From NCBI GenBank assembly GCA_017535725.1, contig JAFXTO010000015.1:1-33866 (forward strand): a DNA stretch of 33,866 bases, in the 5' to 3' direction. Made by a program: the position numbers and the translations under genes. The stretch comes from Bacteroidaceae bacterium. Lineage in GTDB: Bacteria; Bacteroidota; Bacteroidia; Bacteroidales; Bacteroidaceae. Below are positions 1,045-33,652 of the stretch, piece by piece (position 1 is the stretch's first letter; each line of letters opens with the position of its first letter). The notes beneath the pieces were generated by a model, which worked only from the letters and a program-made list of their open reading frames with translations, searched no databases and had not been told where the DNA came from.

Positions 1045-2508
1045 ATGTACCCCAAAAGCTTGAAAATCATCCTCTCATTATTGTTTGTTCTTGTCCATAC
1101 GGTTGTCTATGCCCAAGAGACCCAGTATGACCAGATGAAGAGAACCATAAATGAAAATTCTCTGCCATTGGTCAATATGATAGTGGATGTTTCAAAGTTA
1201 GGGACTTCGTTTTTCGTTACAGGAAAGATAGAGATTACTGATTATCAGCGTAGAACCCTCGCTTCTTCAAATACGGTGAGATACCGTTGCAAATATAGAA
1301 TACGCGGAGGTTCTTCAGTAGGATACGACAAGAAATCATTCGCGGTGAAGTTGTGTGATGTAGACAACAACGACGTGGATGCCAATATTTTCGGTATCAG
1401 GGAAGAGAATAGCTGGATTCTTGACGCAATGGCCATTGACAGGATAAGAATGAGGAATCGGGTTTGTTTTGATGTTTGGAACGAGACAAGTCACACCCCC
1501 TACGAAACGAAATATGGCAACAGGAACGGGACGAAGGGACTGTTCGTGGAGCTGTTCATCAACGGAGACTATCATGGCTTGTATTGCATGAGCGACAAGA
1601 TAGACAGAAAGCTATTAGGTCTGAAGAAAGCCAAAGTGGATGATAATGGCGTACAAGTTCGGGGACTGCTCTATAAAGGCGTCAGTTGGGAGAGCGGCTA
1701 TAGCCTAATTTCATACGATGAGGCTGACGTGAACACCGACAAGTGGAATGCCTGGGAACTTAAATATCCAGAAGATTATCCTTCTATCGATACGTGGCGA
1801 CCGCTGATGGATTTAATTGATTTCTGCTCAATTACAACCCCGTATGACACTTTCAAGAACGCGTATCAAGACTATTTCTACACCGAGAACCTTTGTGATT
1901 ACGTGCTCTTCACCATGGCGCTGAATGTAGGAGACAATGGCTACAAGAACACCTATCTCTCCGTAGTAGATATCAACAAAGGTCACAAGTACCTGCTCAC
2001 TCCATGGGATATGGATATGTCCTTGGGCGGCTATTGGAACGGAGCCCATGACCCATCGCTTGCCAGCATCAACCGCTACGATAGGATTGCTCCTTTCTAC
2101 AGGTTGTCAGATCAGAATCTGGATGGTTTCCAAGACTTGGAAGTCCGTAAATGGAAGGAATACGCTACCACTCATTTTTCGTGTGATAGCATTAACCGAC
2201 GCTTGGACGACTATGGCCATCAGCTAACTGTCTCAGGTGCGTGGGAAAGGGAATATCAAAAATGGAATGGCAATCCGGTGCCGCTTCAGGAATCTATTTT
2301 CGACGAACTGGACTATGTAAAGGACTGGTACAGGAAGAATTACGACAACCTCTGCGCCCAATTCGACGCCCTCCTCCCGTCCAGCGTCCCTCACACCGCA
2401 TCTAAATCCCCCGATGCTACCATCTTCACCCCTGACGGCATACCCCATCATAAACCAACCCGTAAGGGGCTCTATATCATGAATGGTAAGAAAGTATTTT
2501 TCAAATAG
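1045..2508 (+). CDS. Secreted CotH-kinase family protein
   Basis: A 487-residue protein of the CotH family, named after the spore-coat protein kinase CotH; bacterial homologues are often exported and their substrates are mostly unknown. The start at 1045 is preferred to the in-frame ATG at 1012 because it gives a compact signal peptide (MYPKSLKIILSLLFVLVHTV, cleavage near VYAQ). Family blocks seen in order are RGGSSVGYDKKSFAVKL (the usual RGNSSW...KK...K region), GLFVELFINGDYHGLYCMSD, and the metal-binding block LTPWDMDMSLGGYW. The last residues (GLYIMNGKKVFFK) resemble the end of type IX secretion C-terminal sorting tails, so it may be exported to the cell surface; that is inferred. Codons such as AGA and ATA, and a lower GC content than the flanking genes, suggest a different history from its neighbours. 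No promoter box is clear in the 58 bases after the hairpin. Confidence 0.85.
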   Translation: MYPKSLKIILSLLFVLVHTVVYAQETQYDQMKRTINENSLPLVNMIVDVSKLGTSFFVTGKIEITDYQRRTLASSNTVRYRCKYRIRGGSSVGYDKKSFAVKLCDVDNNDVDANIFGIREENSWILDAMAIDRIRMRNRVCFDVWNETSHTPYETKYGNRNGTKGLFVELFINGDYHGLYCMSDKIDRKLLGLKKAKVDDNGVQVRGLLYKGVSWESGYSLISYDEADVNTDKWNAWELKYPEDYPSIDTWRPLMDLIDFCSITTPYDTFKNAYQDYFYTENLCDYVLFTMALNVGDNGYKNTYLSVVDINKGHKYLLTPWDMDMSLGGYWNGAHDPSLASINRYDRIAPFYRLSDQNLDGFQDLEVRKWKEYATTHFSCDSINRRLDDYGHQLTVSGAWEREYQKWNGNPVPLQESIFDELDYVKDWYRKNYDNLCAQFDALLPSSVPHTASKSPDATIFTPDGIPHHKPTRKGLYIMNGKKVFFK

Positions 2509-3431: not shown

Positions 3432-4745
3432 TTAGCCTTGGCATCCCCCGCGCAGAACCACGTTCGTGGTATGCCCGATGGCACAAACAGCCTCGGCCAG
3501 ACGGTTGAGGTAATGGAAGCGCTCGTAATCGCTGGCGAACGAAGGCAAGTCCTCGGGCCATGGGGCGAGGATGAGCAGCGAACCGGCGGCACAGGCCTCG
3601 AAGCGGCTGCGCTCGGGCTTCCAGTAGTGGCCAATGGGTTCGGATTGCACGTGTATCAGGCGCAGCCCTTGCTGCAAAGCCATGTTCTTTATGCGCTTCT
3701 CGCATTCCGAGATACCTGGGGTGACCAGCACGTCGCCGCTCTTGGCCGCAGCCATTAGGCGTTGGCGTTCTGTATCCCAGAAGTGGGTCTGTTCTGTAGG
3801 AATGCCGTCTGTCTTTCGATGAAAGAACACTTGGTGTTTCTCGGGCTGGCGCAACAGCAGCATATTGCCGAAGGCGCTGTAGCGGATGCCATCGATGACG
3901 ATGCAAAGGGCGCGCTGGAATAGGCCGGGATATTCGCGGCGCATCATGAGGCGGCGGGGGTTGTCGCGCAGGTAGTGCTTCCAGTTCTCCAGCTGTCCGT
4001 CGCGCATGAGGATGTGGTCGTTGTAGTTGGGCTCGAAGAGGGCGGGGCGCTGCCCTGAGGCTGACGCCTCAGACACGGTGGCGCATGATGGAGCGCTCGT
4101 CCCTGCGGCGATGGCCGGGGTGCTTGCTGCTCCCGTCTGTCCGCTCGCCACTGTGGCAGGGATGCTTGGGGCTCCCGCTTGTCCGCTCGCCACCGTGGCC
4201 GGGGTGCTTGGGGCTCCCGCCTGTCCGCTCGCCACCGTGGCCGGGGTGCTTGGGGCTCCCGCCTGTCCGCTCGCCACCGTGGCCGGGGCGTCAGTCCCGG
4301 TAACTCCTGTCAACCGCCACCAGGCGCGGCTGACCCCGCCCTTGAATGCTCCGATGATGATGCCGAGGTGCTTGCCAGGGGGCAGCGGCGCGTTGATGCG
4401 CACAATCAGATGTATGTGGTCGGGCATGATGCACACCTGCCAGATGTCAACCATGGGATAGTAGTGGTGTATCTTCGGAATCTCATCCTTCATAACAGCC
4501 TGCCCAAGTGGCGACAGCTTGATATGTGGCGCTTCACCACCTGCTTTCGTTGTGCCTACAATCTCGCCAAAGACCGGTCGCCTGCCCGCAACCGCCATCG
4601 TCACCTCGTAGGTCCCTGGAATCGCATAGTCATGACCAAACATGCGGCGCGTCTGACAACTTTCTTCCATCTCTTTCGTTGTATTTTTATGATTACCCCC
4701 GTGGAGCAAGGCGTCAGTCTTGCTCAAACAATCATCCTTGCTCAT
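3432..4745 (-). CDS. REP-associated tyrosine (HUH, Y1) transposase with internal tandem repeat
   Basis: A 437-residue protein of the single-strand transposase superfamily (IS200/IS605-like, RAYT branch), which nicks and rejoins DNA hairpins. The HUH motif is in IMPDHIHLIVRI (near residue 110), followed by LGIIIGAFKGGVSRAWWRL. After this the usual continuation (FEPNYNDHILMRDGQLENW, then HYLRDNPRRLMMRREYPGLF) is delayed by roughly 80 residues made largely of a repeated 14-residue unit, APSTPATVASGQAG. A C-terminal domain (GLRLIHVQSEPIGHYWKPE, LLILAPWPEDLP) is like that of long Bacteroidales homologues. The tyrosine of NYNDHI or YLRDNP could be the nucleophile; I cannot assign it. The N-terminal 35 residues look unconserved, so the true start may be a later ATG. 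It stands alone with no paired terminal repeats, as expected for a RAYT, which acts on REP palindromes elsewhere. Confidence 0.8.
   Translation of the reverse strand: MSKDDCLSKTDALLHGGNHKNTTKEMEESCQTRRMFGHDYAIPGTYEVTMAVAGRRPVFGEIVGTTKAGGEAPHIKLSPLGQAVMKDEIPKIHHYYPMVDIWQVCIMPDHIHLIVRINAPLPPGKHLGIIIGAFKGGVSRAWWRLTGVTGTDAPATVASGQAGAPSTPATVASGQAGAPSTPATVASGQAGAPSIPATVASGQTGAASTPAIAAGTSAPSCATVSEASASGQRPALFEPNYNDHILMRDGQLENWKHYLRDNPRRLMMRREYPGLFQRALCIVIDGIRYSAFGNMLLLRQPEKHQVFFHRKTDGIPTEQTHFWDTERQRLMAAAKSGDVLVTPGISECEKRIKNMALQQGLRLIHVQSEPIGHYWKPERSRFEACAAGSLLILAPWPEDLPSFASDYERFHYLNRLAEAVCAIGHTTNVVLRGGCQG
4129..4287. repeat. 42-bp in-frame minisatellite inside the transposase gene
   Basis: Three full 42-bp units (4129-4170, 4171-4212, 4213-4254) and most of a fourth (4255-4287) lie head to tail, with a further partial unit before them (about 4110-4128). 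Units 3 and 4 are identical over their shared length; unit 1 has several changes. Each unit contains a small palindrome, GCCACCGTGGC or a variant. Because 42 is a multiple of 3, copy-number change keeps the frame and adds or removes 14 residues. Confidence 0.95.
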
Positions 4746-13570: not shown

Positions 13571-13600
13571 TTGAGGGTCAAGAATTTCTACATAATTAGA

Positions 13601-14791
13601 ATGAACACTTTCGGAAACATATTCCGCCTGACATCCTTCGGCGAAAGCCACGGTGCAGCTATCGGAGGTGTCGTGGACGGTTGTCCGGCCGGCATTGAAC
13701 TCGACCTCGACTTCATTCAGGCTGAGCTTGACCGACGACGTCCGGGGCAGAGCCGTCTGACGACTGCCCGCAAGGAAGGAGATAGGGTGGAAATCCTCTC
13801 GGGAGTGATGGAAACTCCTGGGGGGCAGGTCACAACTGGCCACCCCATCGGATTTATCGTCCGCAACGAAAACCAGCACAGCAGCGATTACGACAACCTG
13901 CGCGATGTCTTCCGTCCCTCGCACGCTGACTACACCTATTATATGAAATATGGTGTGCGTGACCATCGTGGTGGAGGCCGCTCGTCGGCTCGCGAGACCA
14001 TCAGCCGTGTGGTGGGTGGTGCTATTGCAAAACTCTGCCTGCGCCGGCTCGGCATCGATATTAAGGCGTGGACGCAGCAAGTGGGCAACATCGCCTGCGA
14101 GCGGGACTGGACGAAACTGGACCTCAGTCAAATAGAACAGAACGACGTGCGTTGTCCTGACCCCGTTGTCGCCAAACAAATGGAAGAGCTCATTCTTCAG
14201 GTGAAGGGCGAGGGCGATACTATCGGGGGCATCATTGCAGGCGTCATCACGGGCTGCCCCGTGGGGCTCGGTGAACCTGTTTTTGGCAAGCTCCATGCCC
14301 AGCTCGGCGCCGCCATGTTATCTATCAATGCCGTCAAAGGATTTGAGTATGGCGAAGGCTTTGCAGGGGTCACCCAGCGCGGAAGTGAGCAGAATGACCT
14401 CCTTCGTCCTGCCTCCTCTTCAACCGATGCCGTAGTGCCCGAGGTGTTACCCGAGGGTCTGAACGCCCCCCTCCGCCCAGCCCCCTCTTCAACCGCGGCC
14501 GTAGTGCCCGAGGGTCTTTTCCTCTCCAACCACAGCGGCGGCATCCAGGGTGGTATCAGCAATGGCCAGCCAATCCCCTTCCGTGTGGCTTTCAAACCCG
14601 TTGCTACCTTGCTCCGTCCCCAGCAGACCATTGATATCCGCGGCAATCCCGTCACCATCAATCCCCGTGGTCGCCATGACCCTTGTGTCCTGCCTCGTGC
14701 CGTGCCTATTGTCGAAGCTATGGCTGCCATGGTCATTCTGGACGCCTACCTACTGAACAACAGACGGACTCTCCCCCCGCCCTCCCTTTAA
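13601..14791 (+). CDS. aroC: Chorismate synthase with a duplicated low-complexity insertion
   Basis: A 396-residue cytoplasmic enzyme that converts EPSP to chorismate using reduced FMN, the last step of the shikimate pathway. [18 protein letters not shown] sets the start; [33 protein letters not shown] and [16 protein letters not shown] are family blocks. Usual length is about 358. The excess is mainly at residues 266-306, between the conserved GSEQND and NHSGG blocks, where a unit of the type LRPAxSSTxAVVPEGL occurs twice. This is a loop region in the family, so activity may survive. The last residues (TLPPPSL) and the stop codon come from a palindromic element that overlaps the gene's end. 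Confidence 0.95.
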
Positions 14792-14810
14792 GGGAGGGAG
14801 TAATTACCTA
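14768..14810 (+). repeat. 43-bp palindromic element, copy 1 (overlaps the aroC stop codon)
   Basis: ACTCTCCC, CCCG, then CCCTCCC-TTTAA-GGGAGGG, then AGTAATTACCTA. The 19-base core is a perfect palindrome around one T. The TAA at 14789-14791 in its centre is the aroC stop. The element aligns without gaps to the copies at 24550-24592 and (inverted) 24690-24732. Confidence 0.85.
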
Positions 14811-14846: not shown

Positions 14847-14880
14847 CCACCCCCTCCCTCGAAAGGAGGTTGAGGGGTGG
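14847..14880. repeat. Related hairpin between aroC and the cstA-type gene
   Basis: CCACCCC (14847-14853) pairs with GGGGTGG (14874-14880), with inner CTCC/GGAG-type pairing around GAAA. It is C/G-rich like the 43-bp family but does not align closely to it. It could act as a terminator or mRNA stabiliser; there is no T-run. Confidence 0.55.
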
Positions 14881-14893
14881 GTCTTATTAAACT

Positions 14894-16378
14894 ATGCTCA
14901 CATTTTCTATTGCCCTCGTAGCACTCATTCTCGGTTACCTCCTCTATGGCGCCTTTGTGGAAAAGGTCTTCGGTGTTCAACCCGAACGCGAGACACCTTG
15001 TCATCGCCTTGCCGATGGTGTGGACTATATTCCCATGCCCACCTGGCGTGTGTACCTTATTCAATTTCTGAACATCGCAGGAACAGGCCCTATCTTCGGT
15101 GCCATCATGGGCATCCTCTTCGGTCCTGCCGCCTACCTGTGGATTGTCTTCGGCTGCATCTTCATGGGTGCCGTTCACGATTATCTCTGCGGCATGATAT
15201 CCTTGCGGCAGGACGGCGCCTCTCTGCCCGAGATGGTGGGCAACGAATTGGGAACGGTTGCCCGACAGGGGATGCGCGTACTGAGCATCGTGCTCCTCGT
15301 CCTCGTCGGTACGGTCTTTGTCACCACCTCTGCTGGCCTGTTAGCTACGATGACCGACGGCGCTTGGGGCATGGACATGGCAACGTGGAAATGGCTGTGG
15401 ATAGGCTTCGTGTTCCTCTACTGCGTACTGGCGACATTGCTGCCCATAGACACACTCATTGGGCGTCTCTATCCCCTCTTTGGCGCCGCCCTGCTCATCA
15501 TGGCCGTCGGCGTAGGTTTCGGCATCTTCGCGCAGGAGGGTTGGATTCCAGAACTCACCGACGCCCCCTTCGTCAGCCACCATCCAAAGGGACTGCCCAT
15601 CTTCCCCTTCCTCTGTATCACCATCGCGTGCGGAGCCATCAGCGGTTTTCACGGCACGCAGTCTCCCCTGATGTCACGTTGTCTTGAGAACGAGCGTCGC
15701 GGCCGTATCGTCTTCTATGGTGCCATGATTACCGAGGGCATCGTGGCACTCATCTGGGCCGCCGCCGCAATTAAGTTCGCCGCAGCAGCAGCCCCCGAGG
15801 GAGCTTCTGAGGGCGCCTACGCCTCCCTCTCCTCCATCCTGACGAATGGCGGCCAAAGCTCATCATCCAATCCTGCCCTGCTCGTCAATATGATTTGTTC
15901 GACTTGGATGGGCCGCATCGGTGCCATCTTGGCCGTCCTCGGAGTCATAGCAGCTCCCATCACCTCGGGCGACACCGCCTACCGTAGCGCCCGTCTTATC
16001 GTCGCGGACTTCATGCATCTCAGTCAAAAGAAGATTGCCAACCGCTTGTTGCTGGCCTTGCCGCTCTTCGCCATCAGCGCCGCTCTCGTCTTCGTGAAAT
16101 TCGATGTCCTTTGGCGCTACTTCGCGTGGACGAACCAGACACTCGCCACCTGCTTCCTGTGGACTGCAGCCGTATGGCTCCTACGCCGAGGCCGTAACTG
16201 CTGGATAGCCTTCCTCCCCGCCGTCTTCATGACCGTGGTCGTGACCAGCTACATCCTCGCTGCTCCCGAAGGTTTCCAGCTGCCGCAGACCGTCAGCCTC
16301 ATCGCAGGCATCGTCTTCGCCCTCGCCCTGGCCGTCTGGTTCCTGCGTTTTGTTCAAAAGCAAAAAGCTGAGAAATAG
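14894..16378 (+). CDS. CstA-family carbon-starvation transporter
   Basis: A 494-residue inner-membrane protein with about 13-15 predicted membrane helices. Family signs are GYLLYGAFVEKVFGV near the N-terminus, ADGVDYIPMPTWRVYLIQFL, NIAGTGPIFGAIMGILFGPA, GAVHDYLCGMISLRQDGASL and GFHGTQSPLMSRCLENE. CstA proteins import pyruvate or small peptides; the short form without the extra C-terminal part of E. coli CstA (701 residues) is common in Bacteroidota. The segment near residues 295-320 (APEGASEGAYASLSS) is low-complexity compared with the family and may be an insertion. It follows aroC after about 100 bases that hold two hairpins, so it may have a separate transcript. The stop lies 13 bases from the convergent hexosaminidase gene. 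Confidence 0.9.
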   Translation: MLTFSIALVALILGYLLYGAFVEKVFGVQPERETPCHRLADGVDYIPMPTWRVYLIQFLNIAGTGPIFGAIMGILFGPAAYLWIVFGCIFMGAVHDYLCGMISLRQDGASLPEMVGNELGTVARQGMRVLSIVLLVLVGTVFVTTSAGLLATMTDGAWGMDMATWKWLWIGFVFLYCVLATLLPIDTLIGRLYPLFGAALLIMAVGVGFGIFAQEGWIPELTDAPFVSHHPKGLPIFPFLCITIACGAISGFHGTQSPLMSRCLENERRGRIVFYGAMITEGIVALIWAAAAIKFAAAAAPEGASEGAYASLSSILTNGGQSSSSNPALLVNMICSTWMGRIGAILAVLGVIAAPITSGDTAYRSARLIVADFMHLSQKKIANRLLLALPLFAISAALVFVKFDVLWRYFAWTNQTLATCFLWTAAVWLLRRGRNCWIAFLPAVFMTVVVTSYILAAPEGFQLPQTVSLIAGIVFALALAVWFLRFVQKQKAEK

Positions 16379-22488: not shown

Positions 22489-24009
22489 ATGGACAGAAAA
22501 ATGCGCATCTTGACAAAACTAATCACCCTCGTGGCGACCGTCTTCCTCGCCGCAAACATCGCATCGGCCAAACAGCCAAATACTCCAAAGCGTGAATTCC
22601 GTGGAGCCTGGATTCAGGCGGTCAATGGACAATGGCAAGGCCAGGGACGGGATCGCATGCAAGCCGAACTCATCCGTGAACTCGACGCCCTGCAGGCCGA
22701 TGGCATCAACGTCATCCTCTTCCAATGCCGTGTGGAGGGGGATGCGCTGTATGCAAGTCAACTTGAACCGTGGAGCCGCTACCTCACAGGGCAGCAAGGC
22801 ACACCGCCAGCTCCCTACTGGGATCCCTTGGAATGGATGGTCAATGAGTGCCACGCCAGAGGCATGGAACTTCATGCATGGATAAATCCTTATCGGGCAA
22901 AAACCAAGGGCACCACGGCCTTGGCCACGACTCATTATGCCATGCAGCATCCGGAACGTTGCTTCCGCTATGGCGACCTGTTGCTCTTCGACCCAGGATT
23001 GCCAGAGAACCGCGACTTCATCTGTCAGGTGGCACAAGACATCGTGCGCCGCTATGATGTCGACGGCTTTCATATTGATGACTATTTCTATCCTTATCCT
23101 GTTGCCGGTGAGGTTATTCCCGACGATGCCTCTTACGCTGCATACGGCCAGGGTTTCAGCCGCGACGACTGGCGCCGCCAGAACGTCAACATCTTTATTC
23201 GTCAGCTGCGCGATGCCATCCGTGCCGTCAAGCCTTGGGTGAAGTTCGGCGTGTCGCCTTTTGGCATCTATCGCAACCAGCAGTCCTGGGAAGGAGGCTC
23301 CAAGACCAATGGTATGCAGAACTACGACGACCTCTATGCCGACATACTTCTTTGGGTGCACGAGGGATGGGTGGACTACAACATTCCGCAGATATACTGG
23401 GAAATAGGCAACAAGGCTGCCGACTACGACGAGCTCATCCGTTGGTGGAGCAATCATTGTACCGAGCGTCCATTGATTATCGGACAGGACGTGGTCCGTA
23501 CTGTGACCAAACCCGATGTCAACAATCCTAATCAGCACCAAATGCCGGCCAAGATGGCACTCCAACGAAGACTGCCGGGAATCAGCGGTAGCTGCCAATG
23601 GTACGCCCGTGCCGTGGCCGACGACGAAGGGAGCTACGGCTCCTTGCTCAGAACCTACTACCACACTCGTCCGGCTCTGCAACCCCTGATGCCCTGGATA
23701 GACAAGAAAGCACCTGGTAAACCCCGAAAGGTCAAGGCCGTACGGATGGACGACGGCACGATGCACCTCTATTGGACGGAGCCCAAGGCAAAGAAAGAGA
23801 TGGACGTTGCACGCCAATACGCCGTCTATGTCTTCCCCAAGGGCATGAAGGTAGACCTTAATAATATGAGCCAGCTCGTGTGCATCACTTCGGAGAACCA
23901 TGTCCTCCTTCCATACGCTACAGGAAAGACCAAGTGGACTTATGTCGTCACCGCTCTCGACCGTCTGCAGAACGAGTCCAAAGGCGTGAAGAAGACCGTG
24001 AAGTTATGA
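22489..24009 (+). CDS. Secreted family-10-like glycosyl hydrolase (GHL10, DUF187)
   Basis: A 506-residue exported protein. Residues 1-25 (after MDRK, RILTKLITLVATVFLAANIA) are a signal peptide ending near ASA. The barrel domain starts with REFRGAWIQAVNGQW and has GINVILFQCRVEGDALYAS, GMELHAWINPYRAK, FDPGLPENRDF, DGFHIDDYFYPYP, KFGVSPFGIYRNQ and YNIPQIYWEIGN, all standard GHL10 blocks; the paired aspartates of HIDDYF and the glutamate of YWEIGN are candidate acid residues. Known relatives act on peptidoglycan or other GlcNAc-containing glycans. The last 95 residues (PGKPRKVKAVRMDDGTMHLY, YAVYVFP) look like a fibronectin-III-type domain. Its stop codon overlaps the uvrA start by four bases (ATGA), so the two are translationally coupled. 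Confidence 0.9.
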   Translation: MDRKMRILTKLITLVATVFLAANIASAKQPNTPKREFRGAWIQAVNGQWQGQGRDRMQAELIRELDALQADGINVILFQCRVEGDALYASQLEPWSRYLTGQQGTPPAPYWDPLEWMVNECHARGMELHAWINPYRAKTKGTTALATTHYAMQHPERCFRYGDLLLFDPGLPENRDFICQVAQDIVRRYDVDGFHIDDYFYPYPVAGEVIPDDASYAAYGQGFSRDDWRRQNVNIFIRQLRDAIRAVKPWVKFGVSPFGIYRNQQSWEGGSKTNGMQNYDDLYADILLWVHEGWVDYNIPQIYWEIGNKAADYDELIRWWSNHCTERPLIIGQDVVRTVTKPDVNNPNQHQMPAKMALQRRLPGISGSCQWYARAVADDEGSYGSLLRTYYHTRPALQPLMPWIDKKAPGKPRKVKAVRMDDGTMHLYWTEPKAKKEMDVARQYAVYVFPKGMKVDLNNMSQLVCITSENHVLLPYATGKTKWTYVVTALDRLQNESKGVKKTVKL

Positions 24010-27000
24010 GCGAGTCTGTAATCCATATTCAGGGAGCCCGCGTCAATAACCTCAAGAACATCACCCTCGACATACCCCGCGGCAAGCTCGTTGTCATCAC
24101 GGGACTCTCTGGTTCGGGCAAGTCTTCTCTTGCCTTCGACACCCTTTATGCCGAAGGACAACGGCGCTATGTCGAGAGCCTGAACAGCTATGCCCGACAG
24201 TTCCTTGGTCGAATGAGCAAGCCCGAGTGCGACTTCATCAGCGGTATTCCGCCCGCTATCGCCATCGAACAGAAAGTTATCTCCCGCAACCCGCGCAGCA
24301 CCGTTGGCACCAGCACCGAAATCTACGAGTACCTGCGTCTGCTCTTTGCCCGCATCGGTCGAACCTATAGCCCCGTCAGTGGTCAGGAGGTGAAGAAGCA
24401 TTCCACGGAGGATGTCGTCCGCTGCATGCAGTCTTACTCACCAGGCACCCGCTTCCTTGTCCTCTGTCCCCTTCGGATTCCCGAGGGCCGTACCCTCGAA
24501 CAGCAACTCCGCCAATACCTTCAGGAAGGCTACGCCCGCTTGGTAGTAGACTCTCCCTCCGCCCTCCCTGTGGGGGAGGGAGCAGACACCTATGGCATTT
24601 GGCGGATAGAAGATTTCTTGGCAGCACCACACCCCGTTCCTCAAAAACTTTATTTATTGATTGACCGCCTCTCTGTACCTGAGCAGTCACAGGTAACTGC
24701 TCCCTCCCTATCAGGGAGGGCGGGGGGAGAGTCCGAGTCAGAGAAGTCCGTCATCTCTCGCCTTGTCGACTCCGCTGAGACCGCTTTCTACGAGGGTGGC
24801 GGCGAGATGTCCCTCCGCTTTCTTCCAGCAGGCATCGAGCATCAGTTTTCTATGCGCTTCGAGGCCGATGGCATCACTTTTGAAGAACCTAACGACCAGC
24901 TCTTTGCCTTCAATTCACCCATGGGAGCCTGCCCTACCTGTCAGGGCTGGGGCAATGTACAGGGCATCGATCCCCATCTGGTCATCCCGGACTCTTCCAA
25001 AAGTGTTTACGAAGGTTGCGTGCTCTGTTGGCGTGGCGATAAACTCGGCGAGTGGAAGACCGAATTTATCCGTATGGCCGAGAGCATCCGTTTCCCCATC
25101 TTCAAGCCTTACTTTGAACTGACCAAGGAGGAGAAAGATTTGCTCTGGCACGGGCGATATCCCGAAGCCTCCCTCGAAGAACGCTGGCAGCGCCATGACA
25201 TCTGCATCGATGCTTTCTTCGACAGCCTCCGCGAACAGCGCTACAAAATACAGAACCGCGTCATGCTCGCCCGCTACACCGGCAAGACCGAGTGTCCCAC
25301 CTGTCTGGGCACCCGTCTCCGCCGCGAGGCCACTTACGTCCGTATCGCAGGCCGTGCCATCACGGACCTTGTTGACCTCCCCATAACCGAACTCATGAAG
25401 TGGGTTCTCTCCCTGACCCCTTCCGTTTCGGAATCTTCGCCATCCGCCTCGGCTGGCGTGTCTTCGCTTTCTGGCGAGGCTCCCCTCTCCGAACACGAAG
25501 CACAAATCGCCCACCGCCTCCTTGTTGAAATCCGCAACCGTCTGCAGTTCCTTCTGGATGTTGGTCTTGGTTACCTCACCCTTGGTCGCCGTTCCAACTC
25601 CCTCTCTGGCGGCGAGAGCCAGCGCATCAACCTCGCTACCTCCCTCGGCTCATCCCTCGTGGGTTCCCTCTATATCCTCGATGAACCCAGTATCGGCCTC
25701 CACAGCCGCGACACCGCCCGCCTCATTCACGTCCTCCGCCAGCTCGTGGACCTCGGCAACACCGTTGTTGTTGTTGAGCACGATGAGGATATCATTCGCG
25801 CCGCAGACTACCTTATTGATATAGGACCCGAAGCGGGTCGTCTGGGAGGAGAAGTGGTCTGGACGGGAGCACCCCCTGCCTCCTCTCGTCAGAAGGGAGG
25901 AATAGATACCTTTGACCCAAAGGTTGTCCAGCGCTCCCACACCTTCCAATGGCTCCTTGGCTTGGAGACCATAGAGGGCTTGTCCGCTGGCGGTGACCAT
26001 TCTTCCCCTCGAGGTGAGGGAGTGGGCATGGTTCGACGTCCCTGGAATCGTTTCATCGAAGTCCGGGGAGCCCGCGCCAACAACCTCAAGGGAATTGATG
26101 TCCGATTCCCGCTCAATGTGATGACCTGCGTTACTGGCGTCAGTGGATCTGGCAAGAGCACCCTCGTTCGCGACATCCTGTACAACGCCCTCAAGCGTCA
26201 CCTCGACGAAAGTGCAGACCGCCCAGGCGAGCACACCGCTCTTGAAGGAGACCTGGATGCCATACAAGCGTTGGAATTTGTCGACCAGAACCCTATCGGC
26301 AAGAGTTCCCGTTCCAACCCCGTCATCTATGTCAAGGCATACGACGAGATCCGTCGTCTCTTTGCCGAACAGCCTCTCGCCAAGCAATTGGGATTCACGG
26401 CCAGCCACTTTTCCTTCAACACTGAAGGCGGCCGCTGTGAGGAATGCAAGGGCGAGGGCACCGTGACCATCGAGATGCAGTTCATGGCAGACCTCGTGCT
26501 GCCTTGCGAGAGCTGTCACGGCCAGCGCTTCAAGCAAGACCTCCTCGACGTCCGCTTCCACGACAAGAATATCAATGATGTCCTGAACATGACCGTCAAT
26601 CAGGCCATGGAGTTCTTTGCCTTGCATGGCGAGAAGAAGATTGTACGTCGTCTGCGTCCTCTGCAGGACGTCGGACTTGGCTACATCAAGCTCGGACAGT
26701 CGTCCTCCACCCTTTCTGGTGGTGAGAACCAGCGAGTGAAGCTTGCCTATTACATCGGTCAGGAGAAACAAGTACCCACCCTCTTCATCTTCGACGAACC
26801 CACCACAGGTCTTCACTTCCACGACATTCGCCGCCTGCTTGCCAGCTTCGACGCTCTCATCGACCGTGGCCACACCATCCTCGTCATCGAGCATAACCTG
26901 GATGTTATAAAGATGGCAGACTATGTTATCGACCTTGGTCCCGAAGGAGGAGCCGCTGGAGGCAACCTGGTCTGCTGCGGTACGCCGGAAGATGTTGCCG

Positions 27001-27056
27001 CCTGTCCCACCAGTCATACTGCCACCTTCCTCCGTCCCAAACTTGCGCTCAATTAA
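24006..27056 (+). CDS. uvrA: Excinuclease ABC subunit A with several in-frame insertions
   Basis: A 1,016-residue cytoplasmic ATPase that finds DNA damage for nucleotide-excision repair with UvrB. The start ATG at 24006 ([18 protein letters not shown]) overlaps the previous stop. Two ABC modules are intact: [12 protein letters not shown] and [20 protein letters not shown], then [13 protein letters not shown] and [16 protein letters not shown] with [14 protein letters not shown]. The main zinc finger is CEEC...CESC (about 811-839). Homologues are near 930-950 residues; the excess comes from odd stretches at about 181-195, 228-245, 466-495, 621-635 and 657-678 (for example [12 protein letters not shown] and [18 protein letters not shown]). 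The first two and the fourth are translated palindromic elements. All sit in loops between conserved blocks, so the enzyme is probably functional. Confidence 0.96.
24550..24592 (+). repeat. 43-bp palindromic element, copy 2, in frame in uvrA
   Basis: ACTCTCCC, TCCG, CCCTCCC, TGTGG, GGGAGGG, AGCAGACACCTA. It aligns without gaps to copy 1 at 14768-14810, including the ACCTA end. It is translated as part of [14 protein letters not shown], ahead of the conserved [10 protein letters not shown]. Confidence 0.85.
24690..24732 (-). repeat. 43-bp palindromic element, copy 3, inverted, in frame in uvrA
   Basis: On the minus strand it reads ACTCTCCC, CCCG, CCCTCCC, TGATA, GGGAGGG, AGCAGTTACCTG, differing from copy 1 at about six of 43 positions, mostly in the loop. 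It is translated as part of [15 protein letters not shown]. With copy 2 it flanks a 97-bp stretch of native uvrA sequence in opposite orientation. Confidence 0.85.
25868..25911 (+). repeat. Diverged member of the palindromic family in uvrA
   Basis: ACCCCCTGCCTCCTCT, CGTC, AGAAGGGAGG, AATAGATACCT: the same order of C-rich arm, G-rich arm and a TACCT end, with weaker pairing. It is translated as [17 protein letters not shown], in the linker before the second ABC module. Confidence 0.5.
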
Positions 27057-33016: not shown

Positions 33017-33246
33017 AACGTGTCTTTTTCCTATTTCAGTTGACATTTTTCTGCTTTTTTCTGATGTGGTTGACAGTCGCTTACTGGATAAGTTGACAAC
33101 CTGTCTTTTCCTAATTTCAGCTGACATCCTTCATATATCTGTTTTGGGAAACACCTGTTTCCTCAGCGCACTTTGACAGGATGTATTTGAAAATAGATAT
33201 AGATGCATAGACCGTTCGACAACTGTCAAACGATTCACTCGTCCGT

Positions 33247-33400
33247 ACGTGTTTACCTACACGTAAGGACGTGTTTGCGTTTTCGTCCTTACGTGTTTCC
33301 CTTCACGTCCGTACGTGTTTCCCTTCACGTCCGTACGTATTTGCATTTTCGTCCTTACGTGTTTCCCTTCACGTCCGTACGTATTTGCATTTTCGTCCTT
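33247..33400. repeat. 22-bp ACGT tandem array, right copy, seven units
   Basis: Seven head-to-tail 22-bp units start at 33247, 33269, 33291, 33313, 33335, 33357 and 33379, with a partial eighth. Each starts ACGTGTTT or ACGTATTT. Units 3, 4 and 6 are identical (CCCTTC then ACGTCCGT); units 5 and 7 are identical (GCATTT then TCGTCCTT). There are no unique spacers and no cas genes. The same unit is found at 2633-2715. Confidence 0.93.
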
Positions 33401-33652
33401 ACGTGTTATACACATTATATGTTAGTGCGTCCGTTCGGATACATTTCTTATCTTATCGGAATGTATCGGAATGATCGGATAGTTTTCGCGTCAACTTTTT
33501 TTCATTTCTTTGATTCTCGCATGGTATTATTAAACCTCACGCAGAGTGAATGGTCACACACCTTAATTTATGAGTAATTCGTGGAGTCATTCGTGATAAA
33601 TTTGTGTAAAAAATCACTTTTTAGTCCTACTGGGCACATTATTTATTGCCTT

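Follow-up and report, generated by a model that had tools for sequence, protein, structure and literature searches.

Paired palindromic arms inserted in frame in uvrA belong to a dispersed Bacteroidota repeat family that also brackets DUF559 genes

What are the two palindromic sequences that lie, in opposite orientation, within the reading frame of uvrA at this locus, and how might they have come to be there? The window analysed here, a stretch of 33,866 nucleotides, is contig C22 of a draft genome that totals 2,905,156 bases over 72 contigs, and carries uvrA on the plus strand at 24006..27056. The gene was recognized from its open reading frame, its translation and the Pfam families ABC_tran (two stretches) and UvrA_DNA-bind; the frame is open from 23880, and the start codon is a matter of judgement. 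The original prediction held that uvrA contains two copies of one palindrome and that a third lies elsewhere in the window. Indeed, the IUPAC consensus of the three, at up to 3 mismatches, matched the window at exactly these copies, 24549-24592, 24690-24733 (inverted) and 14767-14810, with 0 matches in 100 shuffles; the pattern CCCTCCC-N2-10-GGGAGGG found the identical three, again with 0 in 100 shuffles. Both uvrA copies are translated with no stop, as had also been claimed. The third copy (14767..14810, minus strand), identified by consensus match and ORF reading, encodes the RTLPPPSL* tail at the C-terminus of the ORF at 13571-14791, and a decayed inverted partner of it, with 3 mismatches, lies on the plus strand at 14848..14883, upstream of the ORF at 14894-16378.

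The palindrome recurs throughout the genome. Its core pattern was found at 120 places and the one-sided pattern, at up to 3 mismatches, at 109 sites of the 2.9-Mb draft, against 0 for the reversed control in each case. Matches were present in 65 of the 121 genomes of a genus sample (1 to 129 per genome) and in 37 of the 301 genomes of a family-level sample, and a scan of named-species genomes matched at least 114 stretches. Among 80 listed stretches, the titles name Prevotellaceae, Bacteroidaceae, Bacteroidales or Prevotella, and in one case Ruminococcus; many of the sources, where given, were the rumen or another ruminant gut. A search of phage records with the 52-base arm consensus gave no match, and no known RNA family reached threshold in the window; in another locus, L046, five RNA-family matches stayed below threshold, four of them to microRNA families and one to Acido-Lenti-1. 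The uvrA copies are members of a genuine dispersed palindromic family.

Other repeats were seen alongside this family. At 33240-33415 the window holds an array whose 22-base repeats (CGTCCGTACGTGTTTCCCTTCA type) include palindromic CGTACG stretches; related copies lie near 2612-2713. At 4112-4321 it holds 84-base stretches repeating at 42-base steps, the first three 88-92% alike and then 64%. Elsewhere, L094:1043-1395 carries five short GTCCC-GAA-GGGAC hairpins, 80-86 bases apart, next to the ORF of an IS200-type Y1 transposase (1399-1938, minus strand), a set that resembles a REP array at its transposase.

Element-free alleles of uvrA exist, as expected if the stretches are missing in homologues. 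UvrA was found in 120 of the 121 genus genomes, and we aligned 30 uvrA loci, our own included, assigning allele states by eye. At the window's site 18 alleles are empty, 8 have both inserts (in some cases decayed, or belonging to another type of palindrome) and 4 have something on the right only. The empty alleles include the two best-scoring relatives, L097 and L098; the left arm (24549..24592, minus strand, in frame), which matches the consensus, is missing in these as well as in L103 and L108. By protein alignment the left insert ends at ~24590-24596 and the right one starts at ~24678 (PEQSQ...). The 97 bases between the copies had been taken as native sequence; this holds for ~24597-24677, a plus-strand UvrA segment (24597..24677) that aligns with the empty alleles, and fails at the edges, which are part of the inserts. 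The right arm together with its inner end thus occupies 24678..24733 on the plus strand, in frame, and similar inner ends are found in other copies. Each of the two uvrA copies was inserted in frame, with native UvrA sequence between them, and together they look like the two arms of one paired insertion. Inversion between the copies had been suggested as well, but found no support: the 8 alleles read as having both inserts all keep the bracketed segment collinear, and no inverted allele was seen among the 30 loci. In L099 and L102 an additional arm-like insert lies within the native segment between the arms.

A second pair in the same gene has decayed. Its left arm (25866..25910, minus strand) was located by nucleotide alignment with the intact arms of L111 and L109, and its right arm (25992..26036, plus strand), separated from the left by native residues, is less decayed in L111, L105 and L103. 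The aligned alleles give the same picture of empty and filled states here. Mapped on the UvrA tree, the presence of both inserts takes 6 changes, at least 4 of them forced by starred branches, and shows no clear clustering (87 of 500 shuffles as low), suggesting that each point has repeatedly been gained or lost, or has passed between lineages. When spacers were compared for signs of co-conversion, that of our uvrA was 61-83% identical to those of other alleles, with no clear donor.

Two other genes present a similar picture. CTP synthase (pyrG; 22 loci aligned) carries a compact pair in one loop and a wide pair flanking 39 native residues, and either or both are missing in relatives. In other species the CTP synthase loops are occupied by other repeats; in L273, L274 and L275 the loop holds a different repeat, of the EVDKLTGKQVDKL... 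type, so that one loop is reused by unrelated elements. At the N-terminus of a transporter gene, relatives read MEKKRLVEKKYLFTF, where our genome has an arm-derived 31-residue stretch instead. Among 20 transporter loci read by eye, the arm-derived N-terminus occurs in 3 (our genome, G000, with G364 and G392), and several more have another palindrome-like peptide at this position. Three states of the site were seen: empty, for example in G381; with the arm-derived N-terminus, in G364, whose fetched locus contains no DUF559 gene; and with this N-terminus together with DUF559, in G000 and G392.

From outer to inner end, an arm reads GACTCTCCCCCCG-CCCTCCC-TNNNA-GGGAGGG-AGCRG, with GACCCACCCC as a variant outer end. 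The fetched stretches contain 138 copies at up to 5 mismatches. Of 68 neighbours less than 500 bp apart, 50 are pairs with the outer ends outward, 2 are the reverse and 16 are in line (13 + 3); copies usually form inverted pairs, with their GACTC ends facing out. Between paired arms lies a short spacer (compact pairs), a native stretch or a DUF559 gene. Allowing up to 4 mismatches in each arm gives 47 pairs, whose spacers measure at most 60 bases in 12, 61-200 in 31 and 201-499 in 4, and six of the 12 short-spacer pairs are 113 or 116 bp overall. Since these lengths equal 2 modulo 3, and the pairs are nevertheless in frame, one extra base accompanies insertion; no target-site duplication was discerned at these six pairs. 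The 113/116-bp pairs have one ACATTCTGC-like and one GGTNACCGC-like inner end, whereas both inner ends of the window's uvrA pair are of the GGTNNC type. In an undercounted set of 37 pairs, from a fuzzy search that skipped weaker copies, the outer type was concordant within 27 (shuffled mean 15.5) and the loop within 14 (shuffled mean 7.2, p 0.0013). In the uvrA of L101 extra sequence is present in both arms, as a mirror image, at two uvrA sites. A paired mRNA stem had been proposed, and the fold predicted for the pair is indeed strong (RNA -101.7 kcal/mol, z -7.2; DNA z -7.4).

The arms are open in the frame DSPPALPxREGA...VTAPSLxGRAGGES, and insertion at loops or gene ends therefore adds residues and leaves the protein unbroken. 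Of the 138 copies, 68 are internal to open frames no shorter than 150 codons, with 40 codons to either side, and 50 of the 68 are read in one frame; this bias arises in part because stops inside the arm often close the others. As frame readings rather than annotated genes, 108 copies (up to 3 mismatches) divide into 48 internal, 21 at a possible ORF start, 18 at an ORF end and 21 that are none of these. At the 21 starts, the downstream ORF could begin just before the arm and run through it, and all lie inner end first; at the 18 ends, the ORF closes at the arm edge, inside it or just past it, and 16 lie outer end first.

Internal copies fall in 32 ORFs, of which 20 were scanned against families. 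Insert-bearing ORFs for CTP synthase, DapF, DNA polymerase I and MutS2 passed NCBIfam cut-offs, and AmpG-like and galactarate-dehydratase-like ORFs were below them; Pfam added TamB, a TonB receptor, an AcrB-type pump, DsbD, serine dehydratase and an Mfd-like protein, the last named from its domains. Among the matches listed, the compact-pair peptide of ~40 residues lies within many other long frames of relatives. The AcrB-type pump ORF of L073 (G000:C33) has collagen-like repeats at residues 574-629, with a palindrome pair elsewhere in the frame.

On contig C24 two pairs each enclose a gene of 121 residues belonging to DUF559 (PF04480, E 5e-34), a Pfam family still labelled as of unknown function. 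With arms, DUF559 units measure ~485 bp, and their proteins match Pfam PF04480 and PF18741. In the PDB these proteins matched 3hrl at E 1.5e-17, and there was a weak match at E 0.045 to 3r3p ('Mobile intron protein'), which we take to be I-Bth0305I; in PADLOC they matched HEase (E 2.6e-4) and, better, DpdF (1.5e-5). A DUF559 gene is placed in the EDxHD homing family in excerpts of PMC9403480. Excerpts of PMC12907096 describe Caulobacter VsrA, a DUF559 protein, as a predicted Vsr-like mismatch-repair endonuclease, and not every DUF559 protein need therefore be a homing enzyme. A keyword search of the open-access literature, which covered few papers naming DUF559, returned no report tying it to palindromic repeats.

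DUF559 occurs in 17 of 20 related genomes of our own choosing, comprising 15 of 15 element-rich and 2 of 5 element-poor ones. These 20 genomes gave 53 matches, of which 30 loci were fetched. Arms of the uvrA-type subfamily stand on both sides of the gene at 5 of the 30 loci with up to 1 mismatch and at 10 with up to 5, some of these ten being other, related palindromes. When any inverted repeat was allowed, one of at least 20/24 surrounded DUF559 at 26 of the 29 loci with a tblastn match, whereas control positions, placed 600 bases past the gene, gave 0 of 26; at 3 of the 29 such a strong repeat was absent. Direct-repeat and shuffle controls at DUF559 loci scored 15-20, except for 24 in L310, and the left and right flanks of different loci reached 20 in 114 of 812 cases. 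In addition, arm similarity tracks nuclease identity (Mantel r 0.56, p <= 0.0005). The DUF559 entries number 34, at least one of them counted twice (L308 within L046), in 19 flank contexts, and one protein lineage was designated GACTCTCC.

In a phylum sample DUF559 matches were present in 61 of 118 genomes. Among 29 loci of this sample, 7 of 16 solo frames were bracketed (usable controls 0 of 12), leaving 9 solo ORFs without a strong inverted repeat, and 1 of 13 fused frames was bracketed (controls 0 of 13). G400, the richest genome with 129 copies, had 2 of its 6 DUF559 loci fetched, and G235 (47 copies) 3 of its 5; all of these had other arms or none detected. G038 has DUF559 and zero copies of the uvrA-type arm subfamily. 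Several individual loci also differ in arrangement. In L303, L318 and L329, from three species, a phosphoglycerate-mutase-like ORF carries DUF559 as an in-frame C-terminal fusion, as does an IspG-like ORF in L326 (both names by eye). In L324 (G000:C42) the DUF559 flanks match those of L305 and L323, but the arms are quite different (CCGTCCTCAGCAGAGG...), and a TGA lies in frame.

We consider it somewhat better than an even bet (a probability of roughly 0.55) that the uvrA arms are one mobile palindromic insertion, that the DUF559 unit is the autonomous form and that spread is homing-like. The DUF559 nuclease would cut empty sites, repair of the cut would copy the element in, as in homing, and short paired arms may spread without carrying the nuclease. 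From bracketing and the co-variation of arms with nucleases we infer DUF559 as the mobiliser and homing as the route; the DUF559 unit is then probably the autonomous form, and the compact pairs are probably its non-autonomous relatives. Several points sit uneasily with this account. Most copies are without a nuclease, which counts against it, homing fits allelic spread better than spread to ~100 new sites, and pairs flanking native DNA are a puzzle for it. Also counting against it are the 3 of 29 DUF559 loci and 9 of 16 solo ORFs lacking a strong inverted repeat, the small number of loci with uvrA-type arms on both sides, the differing arms at the fetched loci of G400 and G235, the presence of DUF559 in G038, the repair role described for VsrA and the unclear clustering of the UvrA pair state.

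DUF559 could also be cargo, because ordinary sequence is bracketed by arms too. Accordingly, we weighed a family resembling the Rickettsia palindromic elements in which another enzyme is the mover and DUF559 is cargo or a separate resident of the same sites. It would accommodate the native coding and intergenic DNA found between arms, the count of 2 DUF559 units with uvrA-type arms among the 47 pairs of our genome, and the element-rich genomes with no such unit among the fetched loci. We nevertheless regard it as unlikely, though a serious contender, since bracketing of DUF559 is far above control and extends across several different palindromes matched to the nuclease lineage. Less probable is that a single arm inserts and that template switching then copies it in inverse nearby and keeps both alike, a scheme compatible with any mobiliser. 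Template switching between arms is suggested by the mirror-image extra inserts that L101 has in both arms at the two uvrA sites; covariation of arms within a pair and the GGTNNC type at both inner ends in the window's uvrA agree with it, and the 4 right-only uvrA alleles leave room for single-arm insertion. However, the six 113/116-bp compact pairs and two DUF559 units have one ACATTC-like and one GGTNAC-like inner end, indicating that the arms are not simple copies of each other, and template switching gives no account of their fixed outward polarity.

We give slightly less credence again to a family of REP/REPIN type whose mover would be a RAYT-type Y1 transposase. RAYT-like proteins are present in 82 of the 121 genus genomes, the palindromes form inverted doublets as REPINs do, and insertion of REPs in the genes for UvrA and DNA polymerase I has likewise been described (PMC3733652). 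However, none of 30 fetched RAYT loci had a copy with up to 3 mismatches inside or alongside it, and no GTAG or CGTC tag was seen by eye at the arm ends of the listed copies. Finally, the arms are rich in C and G, and a chance likeness of G+C-rich low-complexity codons had to be considered. It has next to no probability: the pattern recurs genome-wide, the shuffles and reversed controls gave 0 matches, and the uvrA of relatives lacks the inserts, so the idea of an inserted element survived this check, and chance was ruled out.

The family that we propose to be mobilized by DUF559 shares traits with several known systems. Rickettsia palindromic elements, according to excerpts of PMC10969869 and PMC4316617, are ~100-150 bp long, occur in many copies and lie in frame in unrelated genes, adding a peptide. 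The analogy drawn by the original prediction stands as a likeness in the way of working: here too a palindrome is dispersed in many copies and inserted in frame in unrelated protein genes with element-free homologues. Unlike the Rickettsia elements, the present ones belong to another phylum, their arms can flank native DNA and be split between two loops of one protein, and a nuclease-bearing form is proposed. With REP, BIME and REPIN sequences and their GTAG/CGTC palindromes they share inverted doublets with variable spacers, and PMC3733652 reports that the uvrA genes of O. terrae and Thioalkalivibrio contain two REP insertions or dimers, and that a DNA polymerase I is decorated with REPs; unlike REPs and REPINs, they show no end tag by eye and no RAYT association (30 loci), and are associated with DUF559 instead.

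The likeness to EDxHD homing endonucleases such as I-Bth0305I is one of sequence, consisting of the family assignment and the weak 3r3p match. Here, in contrast to those enzymes, palindromic inverted arms bracket DUF559 and are spread on their own as well; neither an intron nor an intein was seen. Vsr-like repair endonucleases such as VsrA have the same Pfam domain, but VsrA is linked in the excerpts of PMC12907096 to a solitary cytosine methyltransferase and not to palindromic repeats. Like MITEs, the compact pairs are short and non-autonomous with inverted ends, and they have a longer, gene-bearing relative with the same ends in the DUF559 units, 2 in our genome and others in relatives, whose autonomy is putative. 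Unlike in MITEs, the arms are themselves palindromes, and DUF559 is not a known transposase.

Taken further, these observations may describe a new class of mobile element, in which a homing-type DUF559 gene framed by lineage-specific palindromic arms yields nuclease-free arm pairs that spread in frame through essential genes, are able to bracket native segments and reach well beyond the genus in Bacteroidota; we hold this wider proposal tentatively, at a little under even odds. How protein-coding palindromic elements move is unsettled in the literature that we covered, and a nuclease that co-varies with the palindromes would make the question of their movement testable. By adding length to UvrA, DNA polymerase I, MutS2, an Mfd-like protein and CTP synthase, the elements offer a natural experiment in how proteins tolerate and recruit new loops.
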